NCBI GenBank assembly: GCA_021736445.1
Contig: JAIPGA010000002.1
Span: 1-64,000 of the forward strand
From: Synergistales bacterium
GTDB lineage: Bacteria; Synergistota; Synergistia; Synergistales; Aminiphilaceae
Reading direction: 5' to 3'
Length of the DNA: 64,000 bases
The translations under genes were made by a program, and so were the position numbers. The notes under the pieces were generated by a model. It did no database searches, was not told the DNA's origin, and saw only the letters and a list, made by a program, of their open reading frames with translations. Position 1 is the stretch's first letter, and each line of letters starts with the position of its first letter. Positions 27,786 to 33,761 of the stretch are shown here, in pieces.

Positions 27786-28418
27786 CTACACCCCCACCGA
27801 GGTTGGTTTGCCAAGCATCTGAATGACGTGGCGGAGGAAGGAAAGGCCTTCCGCACCGCTCCGTTCGGGGTGGAACTGGAAGGCCCAGATATTGTCCAGC
27901 TGTACGGCGGAGACGAAGCGTGTCCCCTCTACGGTTGTTGAGGCGACGGCGGCGCTGGAGTCATCCAGAGCATAGCTGTGGACGAAATAGAAGTAGCTGC
28001 TGTTGAATTGCCGCAGTTCCTGGGCCTGCACAGGGAGTCTGGAGAAGCTCACGGTGTTCCACCCCATATGGGGCAGCCGGCTGAGCTGCCGAAGGGGGGA
28101 CACGCTGCCCTCGATAAGCCCCAGGCCTGCGGTGGTTTGATCGCCTTCGTGGCTGCATTCACAGAGCAGCTGCATGCCGAGGCAGATGCCCACCAGGGGG
28201 TTCCCGCTGTGAGCCCATTGGGTAAGGAAACCGGACCACTTCGCCCTCTGCAATCGCTCCATTGCCGGCGGGAAGGCGCCGACACCGGGCAGAATGAGGA
28301 GATCGCATGCTTTTGCCTCCCATGGGGTGTGGAGGAACCTTGCCTCTGCGCCGATCCGTTGGCATGCACGCAGCACATTGCCGATGTTGCCTGCTCCATA
28401 ATCTATAACGCCAATCAT
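27786..28418 (-). CDS. hisH: Imidazole glycerol phosphate synthase subunit HisH
   Basis: Glutamine amidotransferase subunit that feeds ammonia to HisF. 210 residues. Class I amidotransferase features are complete: VIDYGAGNIGNVLRAC at the start, LILPGVGAFPPAM near residue 42, nucleophile Cys in LVGICLGMQLLCE near 75-87, and the His/Glu pair in AFQFHPERSGAEGL near 179-192. The ATG overlaps the hisB stop as ATGA. Confidence 0.96.
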   Translation of the reverse strand: MIGVIDYGAGNIGNVLRACQRIGAEARFLHTPWEAKACDLLILPGVGAFPPAMERLQRAKWSGFLTQWAHSGNPLVGICLGMQLLCECSHEGDQTTAGLGLIEGSVSPLRQLSRLPHMGWNTVSFSRLPVQAQELRQFNSSYFYFVHSYALDDSSAAVASTTVEGTRFVSAVQLDNIWAFQFHPERSGAEGLSFLRHVIQMLGKPTSVGV

Positions 28419-28999
28419 AGTAACACTCCTTTTGTTGACGGGGGCGCCTGTGTTGCGGTGCAGGCATCTTTCAAGGCGCGTCCCACACCTTTAAAGGTGG
28501 CTTCGGCGAGATGATGGCTGTTATCCACTGCCAACGTGCGAAGATGGAGGGTGATGCCTCCCTCGCGTGCCAGAGCCTTCCAGAATTCGGCGACCAGTTC
28601 CGTGTCGAAGGAACCGCACTTCTGGGTGGGAAACGGGAGATCCAGGTACGCCCCTCCCCTGCCGCTCACATCTACGGAGACAAGGACCAGACTGCCGTCC
28701 ATCGGCAGCGTGAGGGATGCGTACCGGCCTATTGTTCCGATTGCAGCGGCAGCTTCACGGAGAGCCTTCCCCAGCAGGATGCCCACGTCTTCAACCAGAT
28801 GGTGGTCATCCACCGCGCTGTCGCCCTGCGCAGACACCTTGAGAACCCATTGGGCATGGTGGCCCAGCAGTGTGAGCATATGGTCGAGGAATCCTACGGA
28901 GGTGGAGATCAGGCATTCCGGTTTTCCGGAGTGCAGATCAAGGGCAAGCCGCACCTCTGTTTCTGCAGTGTTACGTTCAATCTGCAGCACCAGTTTCAT
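28415..28999 (-). CDS. hisB: Imidazoleglycerol-phosphate dehydratase HisB (monofunctional)
   Basis: Mn-dependent dehydratase of histidine synthesis. 194 residues, so it lacks the N-terminal histidinol-phosphatase domain of the bifunctional enterobacterial HisB. Metal-binding motifs: STSVGFLDHMLTLLGHH near 33-49, DDHHLVEDVGILLG near 65-78, SVDVSGRGGAYLDL near 108, and VDNSHHLAEATFKGVGRAL near 163. A separate phosphatase is therefore needed; the HAD gene at 31.2 kb is a candidate. The start overlaps hisG by 23 bases. Confidence 0.96.
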   Translation of the reverse strand: MKLVLQIERNTAETEVRLALDLHSGKPECLISTSVGFLDHMLTLLGHHAQWVLKVSAQGDSAVDDHHLVEDVGILLGKALREAAAAIGTIGRYASLTLPMDGSLVLVSVDVSGRGGAYLDLPFPTQKCGSFDTELVAEFWKALAREGGITLHLRTLAVDNSHHLAEATFKGVGRALKDACTATQAPPSTKGVLL

Positions 29000-29624
29000 G
29001 TCCCCTTTCTATCGCTTCGATTATGCGGTGCAACTGGGGCCAGAGGAGGCGTGCCGCCTTCTTGCTCGCCACAAGCCTGGCGGATACCTGAGCGACCTCT
29101 TCCAGCACAATGAGTCCATTGGCTGTTAATGTTTCGCCTGACTGGACGATGTCGAGGATACAGTCGGCAAGCCCCAGGCGTGGTGCAAGCTCTATCGAAC
29201 CTTGCAAGGCGAGGATCTCGACCTGCACTCCCCGTTTTGCAAAGTGGTCCTCCGCAACCCTGGGATACTTGGTGGCCACACGCAGTCCCATGATAGAGCT
29301 CTCATGACTGAGAAACCGCTGCCGCAAACGTGGGTGGCCGGCGATGGCGAGCCGGCATCGTCCTATCCCCGTGTTCTGAAGCTCCATGACAGAGGTGTTC
29401 CGTTCCCAGAGCACATCGCTGCCGGCTAACCCCAGCTGCGCTACGCCGTAGTGCACATACAACGGTACGTCCATCGGTTTGGCGAGAATGTATTGGATGT
29501 CACGATCCTCCACCACAAGGTTTCGCCCTTTCCTTTGGAGTGCTTCCACGGGCAGTCCCGCCTTGTGGAGAATGGTGATCGCCTCATCGAGAATCCTTCC
29601 TGTGGGAAGAGCAAAGGTCAGCAT
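28977..29624 (-). CDS. hisG: ATP phosphoribosyltransferase catalytic subunit HisG (short form)
   Basis: First committed enzyme of histidine synthesis. 215 residues from ATG 29624, the HisZ-dependent short form without the C-terminal regulatory domain. Motifs: MLTFALPTGRILDEAITIL at the start, YVHYGVAQLGLAGSDVL near 57-73, LRVATKYPRVAEDHF near 113, LQGSIELAPRLGLADCILDIV near 136-156 and GETLTANGLIVLEEV near 159. The family's Asp-rich GLADxIVDxV PRPP-binding motif is intact as GLADCILDIV. Feedback regulation would need HisZ, encoded directly upstream with a 7-base overlap. Confidence 0.95.
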   Translation of the reverse strand: MLTFALPTGRILDEAITILHKAGLPVEALQRKGRNLVVEDRDIQYILAKPMDVPLYVHYGVAQLGLAGSDVLWERNTSVMELQNTGIGRCRLAIAGHPRLRQRFLSHESSIMGLRVATKYPRVAEDHFAKRGVQVEILALQGSIELAPRLGLADCILDIVQSGETLTANGLIVLEEVAQVSARLVASKKAARLLWPQLHRIIEAIERGHETGAAD

Positions 29625-30826
29625 TCCCCGTACCGCTCCTTCCAGTCTCTGATGTCCATGTCGTCTTGCGTTTCCAGATCGAGGATCCTGTTTTCCCCCG
29701 CCCGGGCCCACCAGCGGTAGCGGCGGAGAGCGCCGAGATGCTGCGAGGTGCGGCGGTCGTGTTCCCAGCTGAACTCCACGACGGCTCCTGCTGCTGTGAG
29801 GGTGTTGGCGTACCTGATGCTTTCCTGCGGTGCGAGCCCGCCGGACCACAGGAGAACGGCCGGTTTCCCCGGTAGCGACTGGCGGCATTCGCGGGCAAGC
29901 TGCTCCATGTCGAGGCCGAATCCCAAAGCTTGCCCCAACAGGTTGTATTTGGCCAGCAGACCGTCGTACCGGCCTCCCCCACCTATCGACATGCCCGATG
30001 TCGGGGTGTATACCTCGAAGATGGGGCCGTTATAATAATCCAGTTCGCGAACGAGAGAGAGGTCGACAAAGAGGGAATCGCCGAATCCCAGTGCTTCAAG
30101 AGCATCGAGAATCTCCCGGAGTTCCTGCAGCACCGTTGAATCACCGAGGACACACCGGGCCTTCTGGAGGACCTCCGGGTGGCCCTTGAGGTGCGGCAGG
30201 GCTCGTAACATCCGCTTGGTTTCCGGATCCAGCGGCGCCCTTTCGATGACATCCAGGTAACGTGGCAGGGAGTCAGCCAGGAGGGCGTCGTGGAATTGCC
30301 GCAGATATCGCGGTTCAGTGCCGGTCAGGAGGCCTTCCAGGATGCGGATATCCCCCAGTACAAGCATGCAGTGCCCCGCCCCGGCCTCTTGAAGAGCCGA
30401 AAGAAGAAGCCAGAGAAGCTCTACATCGGCGCCTTTTCCGTCCCATCCAAGAAGTTCCGCGCCGACCTGCAGGCGCTCCATCTCCGTGACAGGACCTTCC
30501 GGAGCCCTGTACACCCGTTCTGCGTAACAGAGTCGCAAGGGGCGTTCTTCCGGTGCATGGTGCCCGGCGAGATAGGAGATCGCCGAGAGGGTCAGGTCAC
30601 CGCGCAGGCAGCACAGCTCACCATAGGGGGTGGTGATGGCGACAAGTCGGTTGTGGAATTCCTCGGGGAGCCGTCTCCAGGCGGTTTCCATTGTCTGCAG
30701 TCCCGAGGGCCAGAACTGCTGGTATCCAAAGCGTTTGAACCGGGAGAGGAATGTGTTCTGGAGGTGCAGGAGGGCGGCGGCCGCTTCTCCACCCCAATAG
30801 CTGCACCCTCGGGGTGACCCAGTCAT
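29618..30826 (-). CDS. hisZ: ATP phosphoribosyltransferase regulatory subunit HisZ
   Basis: Class II aminoacyl-tRNA-synthetase-like protein, related to HisRS, that activates short HisG and confers histidine feedback inhibition. 402 residues. N-terminal region TFLSRFKRFGYQQFWPSGLQ, motif-2-like LRLCYAERVYR near residue 98, YYNGPIFEVYTPTSGMSIGG near 261 and GGRYDGLLAKYNLLGQALGFGLD near 282. It lacks the C-terminal anticodon-binding domain of true HisRS. It is the first gene of hisZ-G-B-H-A-F-IE; ATG 30826 follows GAGGGTGG. The gene order lacks hisD and hisC. Confidence 0.9.
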   Translation of the reverse strand: MTGSPRGCSYWGGEAAAALLHLQNTFLSRFKRFGYQQFWPSGLQTMETAWRRLPEEFHNRLVAITTPYGELCCLRGDLTLSAISYLAGHHAPEERPLRLCYAERVYRAPEGPVTEMERLQVGAELLGWDGKGADVELLWLLLSALQEAGAGHCMLVLGDIRILEGLLTGTEPRYLRQFHDALLADSLPRYLDVIERAPLDPETKRMLRALPHLKGHPEVLQKARCVLGDSTVLQELREILDALEALGFGDSLFVDLSLVRELDYYNGPIFEVYTPTSGMSIGGGGRYDGLLAKYNLLGQALGFGLDMEQLARECRQSLPGKPAVLLWSGGLAPQESIRYANTLTAAGAVVEFSWEHDRRTSQHLGALRRYRWWARAGENRILDLETQDDMDIRDWKERYGEC

Positions 30827-31128
30827 AGAGTGCCACCCTCAGCGCAAACGCCGCAATCCGTACTGTAGATACGGTGGTGCTGTGGACCGTTCTGTTCCAA
30901 TCCGGGATGTCTCCTGCGAGCGGCGGGAGGATGCATGGTTACCCTTGCCTGTGGTGGACAGGTTGCCTGATGAACAGGTCGTTTGGGGTGCTCTGCCGCG
31001 CTGCTTCCCACAGTGGGGGCTTTCCGGAAAGGAAAGGTGCTCCAGAGAGCCCTGTTGCCGACATAGTGCATGAACACACCTCTTTCCTGATTTAATCCAA
31101 TGATGCGTTAGGTGTCGATGACTGAGGC
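30827..31128 (-). other. Long untranslated leader upstream of hisZ
   Basis: About 300 bases between the candidate hisZ promoter and the hisZ start. It contains an imperfect stem: minus-strand AGGAAAGAGGTG (about 31088-31077) can pair with CACCTTTCCT (about 31039-31030). A minus-strand frame here encodes four His in seven codons (31120-31100), yet that frame lacks a start downstream of the predicted promoter. No U-tract terminator is visible. I see no gene on either strand. Confidence 0.4.
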
Positions 31129-31157
31129 ATGATATCATCTTCCCTGTGCCGCGTAAA
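31129..31157 (-). promoter_or_regulatory. Candidate hisZ promoter overlapping a TGATATCA palindrome
   Basis: Minus strand: TTTACG (31157-31152), 17-base spacer, TATCAT (31134-31129). The -10 element sits in the perfect palindrome ATGATATCAT (31129-31138), which shares its TGATATCA core with the longer palindrome at 32178-32195 in the hisC leader. A repressor bound there would cover the promoter, and possibly that of the divergent HAD gene. Promoter strength is modest by inspection. Confidence 0.5.
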
Positions 31158-31220: not shown

Positions 31221-32042
31221 ATGTACGGTTCGATTGAAGCAATTGTGTTTGATGTTGACGGCGTGCTTGTTGATGTGCAGAACTCTTACCCCAAGGTTGT
31301 TGCGGAAGCAGTCAGGATAGGATGGCCTGCTGCGACAGGGCGTCCCCTGGGAACGCACAGCTTTGATGTGTCCTATTTCAATGCATGCAAAGGGCATGGG
31401 GCCTGCAACGATGACTACGATATCGCCTGGCTTGCCCTGTGTGCAGCGGCGAAGGGTATCTTCAGAGGAGAATTCCCCTCACTCGAGGAGTGGCGGGAGG
31501 TACTGGCCTCGATACCTCAGGACATCTCCCTTGAGCGCTGGATTCCCGAGGCCTTTGGCTCCAGGGTAGAACGGCGATATGTACGTCGTATCTGTGAGGA
31601 GCTGTATATGGGAGAACAGTTCCGGCGGTTACGCGGCCTCTCCCCCCAATATAGTAATGGAAAAGGCTACTATCGCCTGGAGCGTCCTCAGATATTCCGA
31701 CATTGGCGTTCTTTCAGGCTTCCCGTAGGGATCTACACCGGTCGCCCCAGGGAGGAACTGGAGCTGGCGCTGCAACAGATCGGCTGGGAAGATTTCCCGT
31801 TTTCCCATGCCGTCACCCCTGACTCTGGCCCGGCAAAACCCTCACCGGAGGGGCTATCCCTCTTGAGCAAACGCTTTGAAACCACCCGCCTGCTCTTCAT
31901 CGGTGATGCAACGAGTGATCTCATGGCCTGGCGGGGATTCGCTTCAGGGGCCTTTATCGGTGTGGGTGCCCCTTTGCGGCAGGTCTATCGTCCAACCATG
32001 CCCAGTCTCCAGGCGGCACTGGTGGCGGCCGGGCTGCAATAG
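31221..32042 (+). CDS. HAD-superfamily (subfamily IA) hydrolase, candidate histidinol-phosphate phosphatase
   Basis: 273 residues with a complete set of HAD motifs: I, IVFDVDGVLVDV near residues 9-20 (nucleophile Asp); II, GIYTGRPREELELAL near 174-188; III, KPSPEG near 208; and IV, LLFIGDATSDLMAW near 225-238. The helical cap lies between motifs I and II. It is divergent from hisZ and precedes hisC, while HisB here is monofunctional and no PHP-type HisK or other histidinol phosphatase is in the window. That context suggests it hydrolyses histidinol phosphate; the sequence alone shows only a phosphatase fold. GAGGGAG precedes ATG 31221 and a second AGGAGG is at 31204-31209. Confidence 0.8.
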   Translation: MYGSIEAIVFDVDGVLVDVQNSYPKVVAEAVRIGWPAATGRPLGTHSFDVSYFNACKGHGACNDDYDIAWLALCAAAKGIFRGEFPSLEEWREVLASIPQDISLERWIPEAFGSRVERRYVRRICEELYMGEQFRRLRGLSPQYSNGKGYYRLERPQIFRHWRSFRLPVGIYTGRPREELELALQQIGWEDFPFSHAVTPDSGPAKPSPEGLSLLSKRFETTRLLFIGDATSDLMAWRGFASGAFIGVGAPLRQVYRPTMPSLQAALVAAGLQ

Positions 32043-32125: not shown

Positions 32126-32154
32126 TTGACCCGTCTCTACTAGCATGGTAAACT
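32126..32154 (+). promoter_or_regulatory. Promoter of hisC
   Basis: TTGACC (32126-32131), 17-base spacer, TAAACT (32149-32154), close to the sigma-70 consensus. Transcription should begin near 32161. An 18-base palindrome follows at about +18. Confidence 0.75.
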
Positions 32155-32177
32155 GTCCCCGTTGTGTCTGAATTTTT

Positions 32178-32195
32178 TAGTGTGATATCACACTA
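32178..32195 (+). promoter_or_regulatory. 18-bp perfect palindrome in the hisC leader (candidate operator)
   Basis: TAGTGTGATATCACACTA reads the same on both strands and lies between the hisC promoter and its ATG, a usual place for a repressor site. Its centre TGATATCA recurs at 31130-31137, inside the hisZ/HAD intergenic palindrome. The adjacent yerC-type gene encodes a TrpR-family candidate for the binding protein. Binding is inferred, not shown. Confidence 0.55.
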
Positions 32196-32214
32196 TTTGG
32201 GAGGATATGCAGAG

Positions 32215-33318
32215 ATGGGTAAATTTGGAGCTCGAGCATCCATGAACTGGAACGAAGATGGGACCACGGCCTGGCTGGACAAGAATGAAAGCCCCTATTC
32301 ATTGCCGCCCGCTCCCCGAGAGGAACTCCGCGAGCTGTTGTGCAGTCTGGATTTCAACAGGTACCCCGATCCGGATTGCAGGGCCGTCAAAAGGATGCTT
32401 TCCGAACGAACAGGGGTTCCGGAACAGTGCATCTTTGTCGGTAACGGGAGTGACGAGATCCTCCAGTACCTCTTTCTCAGCTATCTGAACAGGGGATCTC
32501 GGAGGCTTGTTCGGCTCTATCCGAGCTTCACGGAGTATCAACGTCTCGCACGGGTTTTCTCTGCAGACGAACGGAAGGTGCCCCTCACCCTGGAAGCGGA
32601 TCGGTTCCACGTAGACTACGCGGCGCTGCTTGACGTCATAGCGGGGAATTCGCCGGATCTGGTCCTGATCGACAATCCCAACAACCCGACAGGTCTCTCC
32701 ATCGACTGCGGACAACTCGAGGAGCTTGCCGATCTCTCTCCCTGTCCTGTTGTGGTCGACGAGGCCTATGCGGAGTTTGCGTCATCATCAATGCTGGATC
32801 GGTTTTCACTGCAGCAAAAGAATATGCTCATTCTGCGTACACTTTCTAAAGCCTGGGGGATGGCGGGATTGCGTTTGGGGTACGCTGTCGGTCCGCCCGA
32901 TCTGATTGCAGATCTTGAAGCAGTGCGGAGCCCCTACAATGTCGGCGGTCTAACGCAGTCTGTGGCGGGGATCGCCCTCTCCTATCAGGAATGGATGGAA
33001 AGCAGGGTGTACAGTGTGCGGTATCTCAGGAAGCAGTTCATCGATACCGTCAATCGCATTTCCGGTTTCCGGGCCTTTCCCAGTGAGGCCAACTTTACGC
33101 TGGTTCGCTCCTCCGTGCCGGAACAGGTATTGGACGAGGCCTGCTCCAGTGCATCTGTAGCCCTGCGGAGGGTTGATGACCTCCCCTGGGAAGGAACCTG
33201 GAGACGCGTTGCTGTAGGCAGGGAAGAGGAAATGCGACGTGTGTTGGATGTCTTTCAGGGATTGTCTGAACAGAGCGAACGGCGGCAGACACAGGAGCGG
33301 TTGGAGATCTCTGCATAG
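32215..33318 (+). CDS. hisC: Histidinol-phosphate aminotransferase HisC
   Basis: PLP-dependent fold-type I aminotransferase of histidine synthesis. About 367 residues from ATG 32215, preceded by GGGAGGA at 32199-32205; a GTG at 32164 in frame would place the palindrome inside the gene and lies near the predicted transcription start. Motifs: LDKNESPYSLP near residue 18, NRYPDPDCRAVKRML near 45, IFVGNGSDEILQYLF near 70, IDNPNNPTGLSI near 150, VVDEAYAEFAS near 179 and the PLP lysine in LRTLSKAWGMAGLRLGYAVG near 203-222. It is separate from the hisZ operon, and followed by the regulator gene. Confidence 0.92.
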   Translation: MGKFGARASMNWNEDGTTAWLDKNESPYSLPPAPREELRELLCSLDFNRYPDPDCRAVKRMLSERTGVPEQCIFVGNGSDEILQYLFLSYLNRGSRRLVRLYPSFTEYQRLARVFSADERKVPLTLEADRFHVDYAALLDVIAGNSPDLVLIDNPNNPTGLSIDCGQLEELADLSPCPVVVDEAYAEFASSSMLDRFSLQQKNMLILRTLSKAWGMAGLRLGYAVGPPDLIADLEAVRSPYNVGGLTQSVAGIALSYQEWMESRVYSVRYLRKQFIDTVNRISGFRAFPSEANFTLVRSSVPEQVLDEACSSASVALRRVDDLPWEGTWRRVAVGREEEMRRVLDVFQGLSEQSERRQTQERLEISA

Positions 33319-33374
33319 CCATAGGACAGGAAGGGGCGGGCTCATCACGGATGATGACTTCATTCCTGTAAAGC

Positions 33375-33403
33375 TTGAGGCCTCCGAAAATCTATGGTAT
33401 ACT
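33375..33403 (+). promoter_or_regulatory. Promoter of the yerC-type gene
   Basis: TTGAGG (33375-33380), 17-base spacer, TATACT (33398-33403). The sequence ATGGTATACT around the -10 box resembles ATGGTAAACT around the hisC -10 box, which may be chance or a shared site. Confidence 0.65.
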
Positions 33404-33461: not shown

Positions 33462-33761
33462 ATGGCTGAAAAGTGGAAGGATCGCCTTACTGACCAGTTG
33501 TGTAAAGCTATCATAGCGCTGGAAACGGAAGAGGAGGTCTACAATTTTCTGGAAGATGTCGCGACAATCGGCGAGATACGAGCGCTCGCCCAGAGGCTGG
33601 AGGTCGCCCGACTCCTGCGGGAGGGGTACACCTATCCTCAGATTGCGCAACAGACAGGCGCAAGTACTGCGACGATCAGCAGGGTCAAGAAATTTCTCGA
33701 ATACGGGGCGGATGGCTACAAGGTGGTCTTGGAGAAGATTGCCGCCCAGGAATCCGAGTAG
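33462..33761 (+). CDS. yerC: TrpR-superfamily DNA-binding protein, YerC/HisR type
   Basis: 99-residue regulator. The helix-turn-helix is in IGEIRALAQRLEVARLLREG and YTYPQIAQQTGASTATISRVKKFLEYG, residues about 37-84, typical of the YerC/YecD family of TrpR-like proteins. ATG 33462 was chosen for GGGGGG at 33448-33453 and because it gives the standard length. In Gram-positive bacteria, TrpR-family proteins of this kind (HisR, YerC) have been proposed to repress histidine genes. The location directly after hisC and the palindromes at two his promoters fit that role. The effector is not visible; histidine is a guess. Confidence 0.85.
   Translation: MAEKWKDRLTDQLCKAIIALETEEEVYNFLEDVATIGEIRALAQRLEVARLLREGYTYPQIAQQTGASTATISRVKKFLEYGADGYKVVLEKIAAQESE

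Follow-up and report, generated by a model that had tools for sequence, protein, structure and literature searches.

Locus organization

A perfect 18 bp palindrome, TAGTGTGATATCACACTA (TA-GTGTGA-TA-TCACAC-TA), is located at 32178-32195 in the leader of a hisC gene. The window, i.e. the whole 64,000-nucleotide stretch of DNA that was analysed, contains the following genes and features around it.

29618-30826, minus strand: hisZ, which heads the divergent operon hisZ-G-B-H... (TIGR00443; tRNA-synt_His)
31221-32042, plus strand: TIGR01548-type HAD hydrolase gene preceding hisC (TIGR01548 E-value 3.8e-18, below the cut-off)
32126-32154, plus strand: hisC promoter, TTGACC-N17-TAAACT, which has a TG in front of the -10 element (promoter search; recurs in relatives)
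32178-32195, no strand assigned: 18 bp palindrome, putative tandem operator of HisR whose three TA half-sites follow an 8 bp phase (from the sequence; in the slot of the HisR sites of relatives)
32199-32204, plus strand: Shine-Dalgarno sequence GGGAGG of hisC (read from the sequence)
32215-33318, plus strand: hisC, histidinol-phosphate aminotransferase (TIGR01141 E-value 2.8e-73, 247 bits, below the curated cut-off of 277; Pfam Aminotran_1_2)
33462-33761, plus strand: hisR, YerC/YecD-type TrpR-family repressor of 99 residues (TIGR02531, 131 bits, cut-off 42; Pfam Trp_repressor)

The palindrome extends from about +17 to +34, between the promoter and the ribosome-binding site of hisC, and the hisC ATG is at 32215. 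An earlier note on this DNA had described the palindrome ahead of the hisC ATG, the near-consensus promoter before hisC and a TrpR-family protein encoded by the next gene. All three are found, the last through its TIGR02531 and Pfam matches; the identical promoter and layout recur in the leaders of relatives. The hisR gene lies 147 bp after hisC.

The TIGR01548-type hydrolase is a candidate histidinol-phosphate phosphatase and is found in the interval from hisZ to hisC, in divergent orientation to hisZ, at three further Synergistota loci as well (L269, L270 and L275). No hisD (histidinol dehydrogenase) was found in the 97.6%-complete genome, window positions 27786-30826 included, which does carry the other his genes observed. 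Likewise, no hisD was found in G019, a genome of the same family; G017 and G018 carry hisD beside the his operon. The missing gene could reflect a gap in the assembly or the replacement of this step.

The palindrome is the only perfect one of at least 16 bp in the window, and no second copy was found in the 2.45 Mb genome with up to three mismatches allowed. A perfect 18 bp palindrome is expected 0.33 times per shuffled 64 kb window and 0.0005 times per shuffled 115-nt leader, so it is the placement in the leader that is unlikely and not the presence in 64 kb. The ends of the palindrome are exactly TA steps of an 8 bp phase (32178, 32186 and 32194), and the pattern TA-N6-TA-N6-TA has its single occurrence in the 64 kb here.

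Some sequences resembling the palindrome were noted elsewhere. The sequence TGATATCA, at about 31129-31137, was considered as a second copy and rejected, as it overlaps a minus-strand -10 element. In the phylum search, the sole his-related near match was TAGTGTGATAACATGCTA, preceding a hisZ-like gene in G094 (L198). A two-mismatch form, TAGTGTTATATAACACTA, occurs as an identical 18-mer in four Synergistota genomes from two families (G093, G095, G102, twice, and G143; L197, L199 and L200). These copies are taken to be mobile-element related, since at one locus (L200) an IS256-like transposase reading frame is located some 300 bp away from the 18-mer.

HisR and its sites in relatives

The YerC/YecD-type TrpR family has been named HisR, and the HisR regulon of Synergistetes has been described as the his operon plus hisC-hisR, with the consensus cacTTTAnnnnnnTAAAgtg (Ashniev et al., 2022; PMC9413887). 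In the available part of that paper, the motif is 20 bp long and corresponds to one dimer, and phased extra half-sites are not mentioned. Histidine-dependent binding has been shown for Ruminococcus gnavus HisR only, where one 20 bp site was tested. The 99-residue protein encoded after hisC is HisR, and a histidine regulon of this kind is already known.

HisR loci were gathered from Synergistota, and for each hisC-hisR pair the leader was extracted. In roughly half of the HisR loci inspected, hisC immediately precedes hisR, and this gene arrangement is conserved across the phylum. With the window excluded, de novo palindromic EM on the hisC leaders of 34 relatives yielded cacTTTAtCatGaTAAAgtg, which is the published HisR consensus, in the same leader slot. 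In the window, the first TA follows the end of the -10 element at a distance of 23 bp; most relatives that have a downstream site show 22-29 bp. Motif slot and distance therefore indicate that the palindrome holds the HisR operator slot. The recognition helix GASTATISRVKK is identical in 10/10 aligned HisR proteins, making a change of specificity in this HisR unlikely. Both a HisR ortholog, encoded in the same operon, and a histidine-gene regulatory region, the hisC leader, are thus present at the locus.

These observations bear on the local, autoregulated histidine regulon that the earlier note had proposed for the TrpR-family protein. The conserved hisC-hisR pair, the HisR motif in the slot of relatives and the published Synergistetes regulon support it, but the letters of the palindrome are unconserved. 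The conservation before related hisC genes that the note had named as a check extends to the operator slot and not to the letters, the literal palindrome being found upstream of no other hisC in 188 genomes, a collection that contains no other member of the genus.

The genome also encodes a second HisR/YerC paralog (G000:C13:38904-39188; L033:8905-9189), which is 74% identical, has the same recognition helix and has no adjacent his genes. Two to four HisR paralogs occur in several Synergistota families, and two have already been reported for four Synergistetes. The second paralog could act at the palindrome instead of the first, or could compete with it.

Among the loci collected, a contig titled Competibacteraceae (L108; DGFE01000020.1) encodes a HisC that is 46% identical to that of the window, as in Synergistota, and is probably misbinned. 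A scan of named genomes with HisC returned mostly Bacteroidota matches and added little.

Fit to the HisR consensus

The palindrome is not classified as a canonical HisR box because the 20 bp consensus is not matched. With the Synergistota HisR matrix it scores -26 bits in its own register, and the best overlapping register, TTTA-GTGTGA-TATC, whose centre is 4 bp upstream, reaches 3.6 bits compared with mostly 11.5-21 bits in relatives. The right half of this register is TATC instead of TAAA. The strict form TTTAN6TAAA occurs three times in the genome, in no case in a his region. The earlier reading of the palindrome as a dimeric repressor site is partly supported: its position is the HisR slot in relatives, but the palindrome dyad is not the HisR dyad. 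The HisR-like registers that overlap it are as follows.

32173-32192, no strand assigned: HisR register 1, TTTTTTAGTGTGATATCACA, of the form TTTA-N6-TATC (Synergistota matrix score 3.6 bits)
32181-32200, no strand assigned: possible second HisR register, related to the first by the dyad and shifted 8 bp downstream (poor alone; rank 64 when scored by the Bacillota array matrix described below)

These registers lie 4 bp to either side of the palindrome dyad, which points to a tandem site and not to a palindrome bound by one dimer.

Phasing of half-sites

The flanks of 20 bp HisR motifs were searched for an extra TA 8 bp outside the motif, and the counts were compared with those at other distances. 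In Synergistota (27 non-redundant sites), the extra TA is present at 8 bp in 15/54 flanks, where other distances average 3.3; the next-highest count, 11 flanks, is at 16 bp, which is also in phase. An independent Bacillota set, consisting of hisZ leaders from 30 genomes of the class of one Bacillota genome, gave 22/38 flanks at 8 bp against a mean of 2.1, with the extended consensus CTTTA.c.CTTTA.catg.TAAAG.g.TAAAG. Chance matrix matches in 1.3 Mb of other contigs, used as a control, showed no enrichment (13/128 at 8 bp, mean 10). A peak at a spacing of 5 was present in the control too and was discarded as a matrix artefact. The flank counts are not fully independent, as common descent links the sites of each set; the two phyla nevertheless agree. 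If phased operators are defined by at least three TA half-sites at 8 bp intervals, the palindrome is one of them, and G019 (L039), from the same family, has three phased TAs in the same slot.

A 40 bp array matrix was trained on the Bacillota sites, with no Synergistota sequence used beyond the choice of register, and 63,961 positions of the window were ranked. Apart from the registers at the palindrome, the candidate HisR sites in the window are the following.

31088-31107, no strand assigned: candidate HisR site TGATTTAATCCAATGATGCG, between the divergent hisZ and HAD genes and immediately downstream of a promoter-like site on the minus strand at 31157-31129 (rank 3 with the Synergistota matrix)
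32136-32155, no strand assigned: weak HisR-like site TCTACTAGCATGGTAAACTG on the hisC -10 element (8.3 bits, third best in the 64 kb; confounded with the conserved -10)
33356-33375, no strand assigned: candidate HisR site GACTTCATTCCTGTAAAGCT, abutting the -35 element of a possible hisR promoter at 33375-33403 (7.6 bits)

The Bacillota-trained matrix ranks the 31088 site first, the 33356 site fourth and register 1 at 32173 fourteenth among the 63,961 positions. With column-permuted Synergistota matrices, at least three of the top 11 matches fall in his intergenic regions in 0.6% of cases.

Proposed function and alternatives

The palindrome is probably the operator through which HisR represses hisC-hisR, and thereby itself, in the form of a diverged tandem site for two overlapping dimers. 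HisR made from the gene after hisC would, together with histidine, occupy the leader just past the transcription start, and when histidine is plentiful the bound protein would block promoter escape or elongation, lowering transcription of hisC-hisR, that of hisR itself included. The two dimers would be offset by 8 bp on half-sites at TA 32178, 32186 and 32194. Their sharing of the central half-site would account for the 4 bp offset between the perfect dyad and the HisR dyad. The sequence, the slot, the promoter, the operon, the invariant recognition helix and the 8 bp phasing of extra half-sites in two phyla are observed, and from them HisR binding, its dependence on histidine, dimer stoichiometry, tandem occupancy and repression at the palindrome are inferred.

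The low consensus score of the palindrome region could also mean that an ancestral HisR leader site has decayed and that the palindrome is a product of chance drift, with HisR acting through the sites at 32136 (on the -10) and 33356. Both sites score higher, and the best HisR site is on the -10 in several relatives (L009, L029 and L048). This reading is nonetheless considered unlikely: it leaves to chance both a perfect palindrome expected 0.0005 times in such a leader and the exact match of its ends to TA steps of the 8 bp phase, and the 32136 score is inflated because that site overlaps the conserved -10. The displaced dyad might instead belong to another dimeric repressor, such as a GntR- or LacI-like protein, for which long perfect dyads are typical, replacing or joining HisR at hisC. 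The probability of this is low, given that the slot is that of HisR in relatives, that no other regulator gene was found adjoining the locus and that the 14 bp core of the palindrome has no other copy or near copy genome-wide (up to two mismatches).

An action of the palindrome as RNA is highly improbable. The transcript can fold as UAGUGUG-AUAU-CACACUA, giving a 7 bp hairpin just upstream of the Shine-Dalgarno sequence that could protect the message or modulate hisC translation, but its folding is unexceptional (z -1.3), no Rfam family is above threshold and relatives conserve a DNA motif here and not a hairpin. Rfam gave no match to a T-box or his leader RNA, only sub-threshold snoRNA matches.

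Beyond the tandem operator favoured for this locus, it is somewhat more likely than not that HisR operators in Bacillota and Synergistota are generally arrays of three or four half-sites in 8 bp phase (CTTTA-N3-CTTTA-N6-TAAAG-N3-TAAAG) occupied by overlapping tandem dimers. Repression would then be graded and cooperative according to operator length, and the palindrome would be a symmetric form with three half-sites, the shared one lying at its centre. For HisR, no test of tandem binding was found.

Comparison with known systems

HisR is a widespread repressor of histidine synthesis. Should its operators be arrays for several phased dimers, as those of TrpR are, the 20 bp motif would fall short of the full site, existing regulon predictions would overlook diverged sites like the palindrome, and the extent of repression might depend on how many phased half-sites an operator has.

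The present site resembles published HisR operators (PMC9413887) in its cognate hisR, the hisC-hisR operon, a leader site between promoter and start, partial palindromy and the presence of a TTTA half-site. It departs from the published consensus in having TATC as one half and a perfect dyad that lies 4 bp off the HisR dyad.

The palindrome was rejected as a TrpR operator, since its letters do not match the TrpR consensus TGTAcTnGTnnACnAgTACA and the protein scores 21.5 bits against a TrpR cut-off of 67. Tandem half-sites of TrpR are spaced by 8 bp. Tandem binding of E. coli TrpR is represented by structure 1TRR (Lawson & Carey, 1993, as cited in PMC9031032). HisR shares with TrpR the protein fold and, as proposed here, overlapping dimers on phased half-sites, and differs from it in the letters of the half-site and in its effector, which is histidine.
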